From a virus: 22,969 nucleotides of DNA. The position numbers and the translations under genes were made by a program. The notes beneath the pieces were generated by a model. It did not search any database. It worked only from the letters and a program-made list of their open reading frames with translations, and had not been told where the DNA came from. Positions 14,493 through 22,969 of the stretch are shown piece after piece. Location: the IMG/VR virus record IMGVR_UViG_3300012920_003337, positions 1 through 22,969 of that record. The stretch is one strand, 5' to 3'. Each line of letters begins with the position of its first letter. The stretch's first letter is position 1.

Positions 14493-15068
14493 ATGAAAAG
14501 AGCAATAGTAATACCAGATCAACACTTTCCTATACATGACGAAGAAGCAGTTAGTGTAACTCTTCAAGCTATAGAGTATGTAAAGCCAGAGATATTTATT
14601 AATCTTGGTGACGTAGGTGAATGGGATAGTGTATCCGCATGGAGATTTAAAGGTAAACGATTACCTAATCTTGAACATCAGCTTATAGATGTAGATAAAG
14701 AAATCGAAGCTGTTAATGCTGGTATAGATATGTTTGACAAATCCTTAGATAAAATAAAGTGTGAGGAGCGATACATTCTTGCAGGAAACCATGATGAATG
14801 GTTAGATCATTTTGTAAACAAACATCCATACTTAAAAGGTTACAGATTTAGAGATGCATGTAGATGGAAAGAACGTGGTTATAAATATTATGCATATAAT
14901 AAACCTTTAAAGTTGGGTAAAGTAAACTTTATACATGGAGCTTACGCTACAACATACCATGCTAAAAAACATTTAGAAGCTTATGGATCAAACATAGTCT
15001 ATGGACACACTCACGATATTCAGAGGCATAGTTTGACTAAATTAGATTCTGGTACAATTGCAGCATAG
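14493..15068 (+). CDS. Calcineurin-like metallophosphatase, ended by in-frame TAG
   Basis: The product of the first frame is 191 aa and has all the metal-binding motifs of the family in order: DQH (D9, H11), GD (D40), GNHDE (N99, H100, D101), FIHG (H148) and GHTH (H172, H174). Such enzymes hydrolyse phosphoesters. The frame ends at TAG 15066-15068, directly after DSGTIAA, and continues in the same frame as SMGCLKDMSPG, which matches the family's next block (GTxxAWSMGCL). Trp (TGG) is the expected residue, one base away. All catalytic residues lie before the stop, so the short product might still be active, but the final roughly 60 residues would be missing. The ATG follows the endolysin TAA immediately. 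Confidence 0.85.
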   Translation: MKRAIVIPDQHFPIHDEEAVSVTLQAIEYVKPEIFINLGDVGEWDSVSAWRFKGKRLPNLEHQLIDVDKEIEAVNAGIDMFDKSLDKIKCEERYILAGNHDEWLDHFVNKHPYLKGYRFRDACRWKERGYKYYAYNKPLKLGKVNFIHGAYATTYHAKKHLEAYGSNIVYGHTHDIQRHSLTKLDSGTIAA

Positions 15069-15071
15069 TCT

Positions 15072-15254
15072 ATGGGTTGTTTAAAAGATATGTCACCGGG
15101 TAAAAACAAATGGTTAAAAGGTAGATTGCATAACTGGAATCATTGTTTTGGTATTGTAACATTCTTTGATAGACCAAAAGGTAACTTTCAGATAGAACAG
15201 ATAGAAATTGTAAAAGGTCAATGTACGCTATGGGGAGAACAGTTTAATGCCTAA
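15072..15254 (+). pseudogene. C-terminal remainder of the metallophosphatase
   Basis: This open frame (MGCLKDMSPG onward, 60 aa from the ATG) is in the same frame as the metallophosphatase, separated only by TAG TCT. Its sequence matches the C-terminal end of that family (WNHCFGIVTFFDR, FQIEQIEIVKGQ). There is no ribosome site before the ATG at 15072, so it is more likely a cut-off end, or read-through product, than an independent gene. The full gene would be 14493-15254, 253 codons. Confidence 0.75.
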
Positions 15255-19596: not shown

Positions 19597-20184
19597 ATGG
19601 CAGTAGATCCAGCATTAGTAGGCTTTGATGTAGTAAATACATTACAAGATACATTACTTAATTATGTAATGGCTAATAGAAGAATGCAACAACAAGACAG
19701 GCAGTGTAATACTCAAATGCAATTGCAACGAGATCAAATGAAAGATAGCAGAGATAGATTTGATAGAACTTTTGATGACAGTAGAGATAGGTTTGATATA
19801 AATACTGGTTTTAGAACTAGAGATGAAGATAGACTTATTTCAGCAGGTAAGTTTGATAGAAAAATGTTTGAAGATGTTTTTGTAAATGCACAAAAACAAA
19901 GAGAAGCTCAAGCAAAATACGATAGAGACTACAACGAATTTTATGATGCAAATAAATCAAAATACATGTTTGCATTAAATAGAGATAATGTAGAAAAAAA
20001 TCTTAGAAGAGAGTTTGAACAACAGGTTGGTAAACGACCAGAGTTTGTAGTTCCTCCTTTACCTGAAGGTGATTTCCTAGGATCTCCAGTTTTTACAAAT
20101 CAATATTTACAGATGATGCAAAATAATCCTGAAAATTTATTAAATATGATGATGATGTCAATGGCAGGAAGAGGAGGACAATAA
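19597..20184 (+). CDS. Putative virion protein with DSRDRFD repeats
   Basis: The 195-aa product is strongly charged and helical. Residues about 50-67 contain two DSRDRFD units, followed by further Arg/Asp-rich text (GFRTRDEDR, YDRDYNEFYDANKSKY). The C-terminus is Met/Asn-rich (LLNMMMMSMAGRGGQ). Size and position fit a T7 gp14-like internal virion protein, but no motif supports that link. AATAGGAG lies 8 bases upstream of the ATG. Confidence 0.65.
   Translation: MAVDPALVGFDVVNTLQDTLLNYVMANRRMQQQDRQCNTQMQLQRDQMKDSRDRFDRTFDDSRDRFDINTGFRTRDEDRLISAGKFDRKMFEDVFVNAQKQREAQAKYDRDYNEFYDANKSKYMFALNRDNVEKNLRREFEQQVGKRPEFVVPPLPEGDFLGSPVFTNQYLQMMQNNPENLLNMMMMSMAGRGGQ
19744..19797 (+). repeat. Short in-frame DSRDRFD repeat
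   Basis: The 21-base units at 19744-19764 and 19777-19797 both encode DSRDRFD. They differ only at three third-codon positions. Confidence 0.8.
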
Positions 20185-20813
20185 TGGATCCTAATTTAAT
20201 AATAGATTTAATAGAAAATTATAATGCAAATCCACAAAGATATACAGATGAAGAAGCAGAGTTTATTGCACAGCTTTCAAATCAAGTAGGTCGTTATTTT
20301 AATAGAGACAGTAAACCAATTAGCAAAGCTTTATTTGATTTAGCTGATACTGCTACTTTTGGATTATTACCTAATGAACTTAGACCTGTTTCTAGAGGTG
20401 AATCTGTATATGGACAAACATTTTCTGAAGATGTTGGTGGTTTACTAGGAATGTTAGGTGGCGGTGCTCTTGGTGGTGCAGGAGCTGTTAGAGGAGCTAG
20501 AGGCATTATGAATATGTTTAGAAAGAGTCCTCCTCCTTTTTATAGTCAACCACGTTTACCGGGTTCTGTTCAATATGGTAGATATGGAACACCTCCAACA
20601 AGGAATCCTTTGCAATTAACGGAAGGTCAAAGATCCTTACCGGGTCAAACTAGAAGACAAATAAGAAGAAATAGACTTCCATTGGATTCTACTTCTGGAG
20701 AACCTATTGCAATGAGAGGTGATATAATGAGATATTTAAATCCAAGTAGTTTATTAGAAAATACAGATGAATATTTAGATACTGTGTTAAATAATGCTTT
20801 ATTAAGATATTAA
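20184..20813 (+). CDS. Putative virion protein sharing an N-terminal domain with the next gene
   Basis: The 209-aa product has an N-terminal helical domain (residues 8-41, DLIENYNANPQRYTDEEAEF and on) that aligns without gaps to residues 12-45 of the next gene. A Gly/Ala-rich section follows (GGLLGMLGGGALGGAGAVRG, about residues 84-105). The C-terminal half is Pro/Arg-rich and then helical. The shared N-terminal domain suggests that both proteins are targeted to the same place, for example the inside of the virion. TAATG coupled. Confidence 0.65.
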   Translation: MDPNLIIDLIENYNANPQRYTDEEAEFIAQLSNQVGRYFNRDSKPISKALFDLADTATFGLLPNELRPVSRGESVYGQTFSEDVGGLLGMLGGGALGGAGAVRGARGIMNMFRKSPPPFYSQPRLPGSVQYGRYGTPPTRNPLQLTEGQRSLPGQTRRQIRRNRLPLDSTSGEPIAMRGDIMRYLNPSSLLENTDEYLDTVLNNALLRY

Positions 20814-20816
20814 TAA

Positions 20817-22969
20817 ATGGCATCACCATATGAAGCTTATAAAGTACGTGAGTTAGTAACAGCGTACCGATCAGATCCTACTATGTTTACAGATGATCAA
20901 TTAGATCAACTGGAAGCATTGGCTTTTGATAATGGAATAAAGTTTAAACGTATTAACAGTGAGTTTAATCTAAATAGAGCTATAAGACAGGCATTTGCTG
21001 GAGCTGTAGAAGGCTTTACTACATTTGATTTAATGTCTGAAAAGCCTCGTAATACAGGCGAAGCTATATTTAGACAGATTGGACATTTAGTAGGCTTTGC
21101 TCCGGGTATTGCTAAAGCACCTATAGTAGCTGCATCTAAAGTTGCACAACGAGTTACTGGCAAGCAAGCACCTAGTCGTTTTACAGAAGCAGTATTAGAT
21201 CATATAGATATATTAAATACTAAGTCTGTTCCTATGCAATTTAGCAGAGCAGGTAAATTAGGTTTAGATAAAATATTAACTAAAACTGGTGCAGACTCTG
21301 CAGAATTATTAAAACGTGGTACTGTTGGTAGGCAAATAGCAGATGAAGCTGTAGGCTTGGCTTTTGCTAGTGGTATAAGTAATGTTTGGAAAGGTGAAGA
21401 TGCTGTATTAGATGGTTTTATTGGTGGAGCTATAGCTGGTGGAGCTTTTGGTGGTTTAGGTAATTTTGTTTCTGTAGGTAATTTATATAAAGGTACACCT
21501 CAACAAGTTGAAAGAGCCAATTTAGCATTACGTACTGGAGTAGGTTCTTTGATTACTGGATTACCTAGTACACTTGCTGATGAGCCTACAGAAATGCAGA
21601 TATATAATTATTTATTAGGTGGATTCTTTGGGTACAATGCTAGACCTGCAGTAGATAAAGAAGCATCTAAATGGTTTAATAATAATAGAAATCCTAGAGA
21701 AAACTTCAGACCAGAAGAGTCTAAGGATTTTAAAGACCTAAGTAAAGAAGCAAAAGATTATATACGTTATGAACACCCAATGGGTTATGAGTCTAGTCAA
21801 GGAGAAGCAGGAGGTAGTTCGGGAGTAGCTTTACGATATTTAAATAGAAAAGCAGAAGAAAATGGTGAGACTATAAATTTTAGACAAGAAGCTATTGACC
21901 ATTTTAAACGTAACAATATACAGTATACTGAAAAAGATGTGCTTGATTATTACAGAGAAAGAGCTATAGAGCTGTATGATATTGGTAGAGATAATATTAG
22001 GAATGCTGTAGTATTTAGAAATAACATATATAATAACGAACAAATAGACCAGATGGACACAGTGCAACGTGATCTATTTAGTTTAAGAAAAACGTCTAAT
22101 AAAATATTTGATAAAACAGACAGGTTTGATACTAGTGTAGACGTAGCACAAACAATTAAGAATACTTTTGAGCAGTCTAACAATGACATAGAGATATTTC
22201 GTCAGAATATTAAAAATGCATTTGGTGATGTCATTAGTCCAGACATTAACAAAGAATTAACACAATACTTTATTGACAAGTCTAACATTATGCAGCCGAT
22301 TGATTTACCATTTATTCATGGAAATCAGGCTAGGTTGGCATTGGTAGAAAACGAAAGAATAGGAGATGTAACTATAAGAGAAAAAGCTCCTATGCTTCCT
22401 ATACAAAAGTTGTTACCAGATGCTAACATAAGATTTATGACACATGCTGTGTTAGATGGTAGTCCTGTAAAAATACTAGGTCAAACATCTAAGGATGGTG
22501 AAATAGTATACGATATAAATCAAAAACAACTAGGGTTGCTTAACGATGTTTTAGCAAGTAAAAACAGATACATGTTAAGTGCTAACAAAGATAAGCTTAA
22601 TGTATTTACTAGTGAGTTTAGAGACGATAACTATACGCTTGACGATATATTTAATATATTATCTAGGTCTGGCAGGAGTTTAAAAGAGTTACAAAAAAAT
22701 TATGATGATGCATTGAAATTAGAATACGAGTTGTTTGGTAAAAATGATAATGTTGCTCAAATACATAGAAGAAAGTTTATATCTAATATTGTTAATGAAG
22801 CAGAATTAGAAGGATTACCTGTAGAAGAGGCTTATAGATTTATACAAAAAGACTCACCTTATTTTAAAGATGTAGTAGACTTTAATAAACGTATGCAATT
22901 AGCTACTACTAGAATGTTTTATATGACACCTTCTAGTTTTAAAAATGTAGCAGATACAAACCAAGGTCA
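20817..22969 (+). CDS. Very large virion-associated protein (partial, runs off the window)
   Basis: The frame opens at ATG 20817 (4 bases after the preceding TAA) and stays open to the window end, giving at least 717 codons without a stop. It starts MASPYEAYKVRELVTAYRSD and shares residues 12-45 with the preceding gene. A Gly-rich hydrophobic patch lies at about residues 200-217 (FIGGAIAGGAFGGLGNF). Later parts are charged and helical, with a beta section around ARLALVENERIGDVTIREK. Large, multi-domain proteins with a hydrophobic patch at this place are typical of T7 gp15/gp16-like ejection proteins or other large internal virion proteins of marine podoviruses. I see no clear transglycosylase or protease motif in the part present. 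The C-terminus is unknown. Confidence 0.75.
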   Translation, partial: MASPYEAYKVRELVTAYRSDPTMFTDDQLDQLEALAFDNGIKFKRINSEFNLNRAIRQAFAGAVEGFTTFDLMSEKPRNTGEAIFRQIGHLVGFAPGIAKAPIVAASKVAQRVTGKQAPSRFTEAVLDHIDILNTKSVPMQFSRAGKLGLDKILTKTGADSAELLKRGTVGRQIADEAVGLAFASGISNVWKGEDAVLDGFIGGAIAGGAFGGLGNFVSVGNLYKGTPQQVERANLALRTGVGSLITGLPSTLADEPTEMQIYNYLLGGFFGYNARPAVDKEASKWFNNNRNPRENFRPEESKDFKDLSKEAKDYIRYEHPMGYESSQGEAGGSSGVALRYLNRKAEENGETINFRQEAIDHFKRNNIQYTEKDVLDYYRERAIELYDIGRDNIRNAVVFRNNIYNNEQIDQMDTVQRDLFSLRKTSNKIFDKTDRFDTSVDVAQTIKNTFEQSNNDIEIFRQNIKNAFGDVISPDINKELTQYFIDKSNIMQPIDLPFIHGNQARLALVENERIGDVTIREKAPMLPIQKLLPDANIRFMTHAVLDGSPVKILGQTSKDGEIVYDINQKQLGLLNDVLASKNRYMLSANKDKLNVFTSEFRDDNYTLDDIFNILSRSGRSLKELQKNYDDALKLEYELFGKNDNVAQIHRRKFISNIVNEAELEGLPVEEAYRFIQKDSPYFKDVVDFNKRMQLATTRMFYMTPSSFKNVADTNQG

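Follow-up and report, generated by a model that had tools for sequence, protein, structure and literature searches.

A homologous N-terminal domain in a small and a giant late protein of uncultured podovirus-like phages, and its possible role in docking

The stretch of DNA analysed here (the window; IMG/VR record IMGVR_UViG_3300012920_003337) is a virus fragment of 22,969 bases, with part of the genome missing. It ends in two adjacent genes that encode a protein of 209 aa, P1, and a giant, P2, whose N-termini resemble each other. Why should two proteins of such different size begin alike? A sequence-only reading took the likeness for a common leader, suggesting a signal for packaging into, or docking in, the virion core. 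The features considered are listed below by their positions in the window.

19597..20184, + strand: 195-aa protein preceding P1, placed by its coordinates; the order is the same in relatives.
20184..20813, + strand: P1, ORF of 209 aa with a constant N-terminus and a variable tail.
20184..20468, + strand: entire shared domain of P1, residues 1-95, from hhalign columns reaching residue 95-101; predicted helices at 45-57 and 80-93.
20205..20306, + strand: core of the shared domain in P1, residues 8-41, a predicted helical hairpin (pLDDT >90) covered by hhalign of the first part.
20421..20504, + strand: Gly-rich hydrophobic stretch of P1, residues 80-107, from the sequence, with conserved Gly columns.
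20511..20810, + strand: variable tail of P1, residues 110-209, differing in length and sequence even among near-identical phages.
20817..22969, + strand: P2, giant ORF open at the window end, which truncates it at 717 aa.
20817..21122, + strand: entire shared domain of P2, residues 1-102, from hhalign columns to residue 99-101, with predicted helices at 52-68 and 80-94; the most conserved P2 stretch tested.
20850..20951, + strand: core of the shared domain in P2, residues 12-45, a helical hairpin from profile comparison and predicted helices 4-19 and 26-38.
21423..21467, + strand: glycine-rich block GGAIAGGAFGGLGNF of P2, residues 203-217, outside the shared domain and conserved in clades A-D.

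Homologues of P1 are 146-403 aa long, occupy the same genomic place and also have a variable tail; complete relatives of P2 reach about 2,600-3,100 aa. The stop codon of the 195-aa gene overlaps the P1 start, and the two genes are therefore probably co-translated.

The gapless match between P1 residues 8-41 and P2 residues 12-45, reported by the sequence-only reading with 9 of 34 identities, is exact (19 positives); its score of 47, the best of any gapless 34-mer, was reached by none of 300 P1 shuffles (maximum 42). BLASTP of the pair alone gave E=0.004 over 125 aa, spanning the FxL and RP/GE regions and running into the Gly-rich part, the path along which a continuation had been proposed. Profile–profile comparison gave E=1.4e-4 with small profiles of close relatives, 9e-9 with larger homologue sets, and 5.9e-12 and 1.7e-11 with a trimmed and a deep set (scores 67-68). 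With about 60 unique homologues in each profile, hhalign aligned some 85 columns at 97% probability. Since a single pair has just 9 of 34 identities, two unrelated helical N-termini might be thought to look alike by chance. However, column shuffles (200 and 300) never scored above 24, the reversed profile scored 14.6, and six control families from the same gene block scored 10-23 against either profile, all far below the 67-68 of the true comparison. We therefore reject chance similarity, whose probability is negligible.

The two halves of the domain contribute unequally. The hairpin alone was matched by hhalign at 97.8% probability (E=8.8e-13), and we regard its homology, judged from the profiles, as secure. 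The second half alone, comprising the amphipathic and Gly-rich parts, reached a probability of only 20.8% when the first set was used, rising to 45% for the deep one; in the latter its score of 24.5 exceeds the maximum of 16.8 in 150 shuffles, but is weak in absolute terms. Homology reaching through the Gly-rich helix is thus probable, with an uncertain register in the middle. That the P1 and P2 N-termini are homologous is nearly certain, and their similarity covers about 95 residues.

Structure prediction, on which the sequence-only reading had made its claim depend, gave helices in the same order in both proteins. AlphaFold2, run on the two family alignments, places helices at residues 3-15, 22-35, 45-57 and 80-93 of P1 (pLDDT 89-97 for residues 1-80) and at 4-19, 26-38, 52-68 and 80-94 of P2 (pLDDT 75-92 for residues 1-100). 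The pTM values are low (0.43 and 0.49), and we therefore use the local helical pattern alone; the likeness of P1 and P2 is one of helix order. The shared residues are thus predicted to form a hairpin of two helices, followed by an amphipathic and then a Gly-rich helix, in that order in both proteins, which makes them a folded domain of about 95 residues instead of a short leader. Among PDB folds the P1 model found no match. The P2 model (N-terminal 240 residues) matched the BFVD entries A0A516LAI4 and A0A516LW39 (E=1.3e-8 and 8e-4; 28-30% identity), uncharacterised viral proteins that are silent on the function of P2.

Which other proteins carry the domain? The profile search that had been recommended found many carriers, solely among uncultured viral contigs (IMG/VR), yielding 61 unique P1 and 56 unique P2 N-termini. 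Neither of the outcomes named beforehand as refuting the sequence-only reading was obtained. The domain is N-terminal and lies in this gene block; both genes share a strand, on which P1 precedes P2. Clades A (that of the window), B and C have both proteins. A joint-profile search of 36 whole contigs, at E up to 0.1, gave exactly two matches, one P1 and one P2, in 34 of them. One of the remaining contigs begins inside the block and has a single match. The other, an 88,986-base record (G009), has three, the third being a divergent giant of clade D near the record start (L166). We rejected a third carrier per genome in this case, because the extra match is a second giant; the record probably represents two co-assembled phages, with a giant of clade A and one of clade D. 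The ORFs of the loci yielded no further carrier, and a domain spread over many virion proteins was rejected, there being two carriers per record.

In 119 of 140 loci, a redundant set with several per contig, P1 and P2 are directly adjacent; in the other 21 a gap of 700-900 bases separates them, filled by a HExxH ORF in the loci read. This extra ORF of about 257-327 aa (L035, L036, L037, L039, L041 and L042) carries the motif as PHELLHYF or PHEILHYF and matches no Pfam family. Its start (TNLLQLT or similar) resembles the LLxLT box of P1 tails (NPLQLTEG in the window).

The divergent clade D giant led to four more contigs with the same gene order. No P1 was found in the clade D records, where P2 directly follows the preceding gene. 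After P2, two of them (L172:19347-20450 and L174:17751-18896) encode a protein with a stretch like the middle of P1 (GLYRGTDDTVFGLLPSG...; FGLLP...GE), which hhalign matched to P1 at 74-83% as single sequences and at 48.5% as a pair. These proteins are possibly the P1 counterpart in clade D, a lead only.

A FastTree phylogeny of 66 N-termini, short and unrooted, separates P1 from P2 perfectly (support 1.0, branch 1.45). Clade D attaches between the P1 and P2 of clades A-C, and the main groups of the two families correspond, as in parallel descent within clades A, B and C. Because each family forms a separate clan (support 1.0), one old duplication is indicated, and the data fit such an event followed by co-inheritance of P1 and P2. 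The hhalign result and the clean split are together what a paralogous pair related by descent should give at the sequence level. Similarity between P1 and P2 is no higher within a genome (9.9/34) than between genomes (9.7/34) and thus gives no hint of concerted evolution. On this ground and on that of the clean split, we rejected a recent duplication and gene conversion. The absence of P1 from clade D may reflect either its loss or an origin of P1 after clade D had split off.

Among the parts tested, conservation is highest in the shared domain. Between the window and one relative (L013), P2 is 86% identical over residues 1-100 and 49% over residues 100-600, and P1 is 65% identical over residues 1-100 and 36% in the tail. 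Most other pairs behave alike, divergent P1 pairs having 60-72% identity in the N-terminus and 21-60% in the tail; in the N-termini pN is lower than pS, the exception being a single very close pair with too few counts. The N-terminal 100 residues or so are the best conserved part tested of P1 and of P2. In three very similar phages (L007, L008 and L012) P1 is 251-403 aa long while its N-terminal 100 residues are 95-97% identical. Sequence comparison suggests fast exchange or indels in the P1 tail.

Within the core, Y5, P9, F/Y12, D/E14, E/D18, I/L20, A/S24, F31 and R/P33 are conserved in both families, and these shared residues appear mostly structural, of the kind that holds a fold. At three other positions the families are fixed on different residues: N in P1 and R in P2 at position 6, A and L at 17, and A and E/Q at 21. 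In view of this difference, complementary subunits or docking at adjacent sites are likelier than one interchangeable packaging signal.

The position of the genes bears on their function. The capsid protein encoded in the window has distant relatives in Microcystis phage Mel-JY34 (E=4e-16) and in PaMx41-like Pseudomonas phages (E=2e-4). In the window, the capsid gene is followed by lysis-type genes with an M15 peptidase, then by genes for proteins of 854, 62, 306, 213, 195 and 209 aa and the giant. In PaMx41 the order is capsid, holin, endolysin, spanins, gp21 (1,031 aa), gp22 (305), gp23 (577) and gp24 (1,849 aa), with gp21-gp24 all annotated as structural and the last late genes. The P1 and P2 genes thus end the late structural block, in the same order in relatives and syntenic with PaMx41 gp21-gp24, and from this synteny we infer that P2 is the counterpart of gp24. 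Like P2, gp24 and the 1,894-aa protein of Mel-JY34 are giants encoded by the last gene of the structural block; unlike P2, they lack the domain, which was not detected in either giant or in the proteins preceding them. Two other ORFs of the window deserve mention. A 240-aa ORF (389-1111) with the motif HELGH has a weak Pfam match, below cut-off, to a putative zinc metallopeptidase (E=1.9e-4). A calcineurin-like phosphoesterase (14493-15254), 253 aa in relatives, is interrupted here by an in-frame stop, which leaves 191 aa and, further on in the same frame, a 60-aa ORF; the cause is a recent nonsense change or a sequencing error.

Known families offer little guidance. Neither P1 nor P2 has a known family in Pfam, PHROGs, PDB sequences, PDB folds or INPHARED, and the sequence searches did not connect them to any ejection protein that has been characterised. 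In INPHARED, tblastn with several P1 and P2 queries, drawn from all four clades, found no relative (one non-significant match); a search of cellular genome contigs with the P1 profile was negative too. Searched for large polyvalent proteins, P2 of clade A (L005, L037) gave no Pfam family above cut-off and that of clade D (L172) none at E<=0.1. The P2 blocks conserved over clades A-D contain no recognised enzyme signature or catalytic motif; near the C-terminus (L005 2468-2620, L037 2570-2690) they include TGK..SRF..FAF and LFDTALPPP. The end of L037 P2 matches phrog_11358 (E=1.1e-6), a family of 3,431 positions and unknown function.

Similarities of another kind exist. Like P1 and P2, the podovirus ejection (internal virion) proteins T7 gp14/gp15/gp16 and P22 gp7/gp16/gp20 are encoded by a few adjacent genes that end the virion block, range from small to very large, and have Gly-rich or membrane-type segments, although no sequence relation to P1 or P2 is detectable in PHROGs, INPHARED or PDB, and a P2-type giant is about twice the size of T7 gp16. 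Podovirus ejection proteins can exchange modules, as with the gp16 peptidoglycan hydrolase domain on gp15 homologues (PMC8954989). In the literature we found no report of neighbouring podovirus ejection proteins with a common paralogous N-terminal domain. The same N-terminus on two internal proteins is known from the T4 capsid targeting sequence and from the propeptides of the SPN3US head paralogues gp53 and gp54 (PMC5694885), and the proposed role of these leaders is to bring internal proteins into the prohead.

We believe that the best overall explanation is a paralogous docking domain of two internal (ejection) proteins, to which we give a probability of about 0.55. P1 and P2 are the products of the last two genes of a podovirus-like late block; P2 would be a giant internal protein that exits the virion together with the DNA, and P1 would be its small partner. 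The domain would dock both into the same assembly, be it the portal, an internal core or procapsid scaffold, or the later ejection channel, at sites that are adjacent or complementary and not identical, and would anchor the rest of P2 and the variable P1 tail. The profile homology, the common helix order, the one-to-one pairing in nearly all whole contigs, the conservation of the N-terminal 100 residues and the parallel descent are consistent with this, as is the fact that P2, like PaMx41 gp24, comes last in the late block; gp24 is annotated as structural, and the PaMx41 capsid protein is distantly related to that of the window. For the docking function itself, which we judge by the position and constancy of the domain and by synteny with the final structural genes of PaMx41, the chances are about even. 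The differently fixed positions suggest that the copies may bind different sites, clade D manages without P1, the PaMx41 and Mel-JY34 giants have no detectable domain, and the shared invariant residues mostly seem to hold the fold. A packaging or docking signal in the original sense is plausible, but fits less well with two carriers per genome, a clade D giant without P1 and different fixed residues; the idea should be restated as a duplicated folded domain.

The same observations could be read as a sign that P1 and P2 bind each other. With perhaps one chance in four, in our estimate, P1 assists P2 as its partner or chaperone, and the paralogous hairpins assemble into a heteromeric bundle of helices, such as a ring of P1 surrounding the N-terminus of P2; the domain would then be an interaction pair and not a virion address. 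The constant presence of one of each, adjacent and co-inherited, and the family-specific residues at equivalent positions agree with this. So does core position 33, at which P1 has P, S or G in the clade whose P2 has P, but R, K or Q in the others. This change may, however, be a single event on one branch, and the occurrence of P2 without P1 in clade D counts against this reading. Less probable still is a membrane-active module, built of amphipathic and Gly-rich helices upon a helical base, whose role lies in ejection and not in assembly, with P1 as a detached copy supplying extra membrane-inserting units. Both domains run into Gly-rich hydrophobic helices, and all ejection proteins of the gp14 and gp16 types have membrane-spanning segments (PMC8954989), but the securest shared part is the polar hairpin and not the Gly-rich helix. 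We consider a T4-type targeting leader removed by a prohead protease very improbable, despite the N-terminal position and constancy of the domain and the shared N-terminal propeptides of giant-phage ejection paralogues (PMC5694885). T4 targeting sequences are 10-20 residues long and cleaved, whereas the P1/P2 domain is folded over about 95 residues, with no sign of cleavage found and no conserved break onward in P2, and no candidate prohead protease was identified in the window, a partial genome.

Returning to the docking domain, we suggest, tentatively and as something rather less likely than the general reading, that a large group of uncultured podovirus-like phages uses an undescribed, non-cleaved, folded domain to dock both a small internal protein and a giant one. 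P1 would have been copied from the N-terminus of the giant, splitting one function over two subunits, and one clade would have kept the single-giant state. How very large internal proteins enter a small capsid and are positioned for ejection is poorly known. A small, constant domain found exactly twice in each genome, and better conserved than any other part tested of a protein of about 2,700 residues, offers an experimental handle for finding its partner, with clade D, which has no small copy, as a natural comparison group. It also flags the ejection block of uncultured phages in which standard annotation comes up empty.
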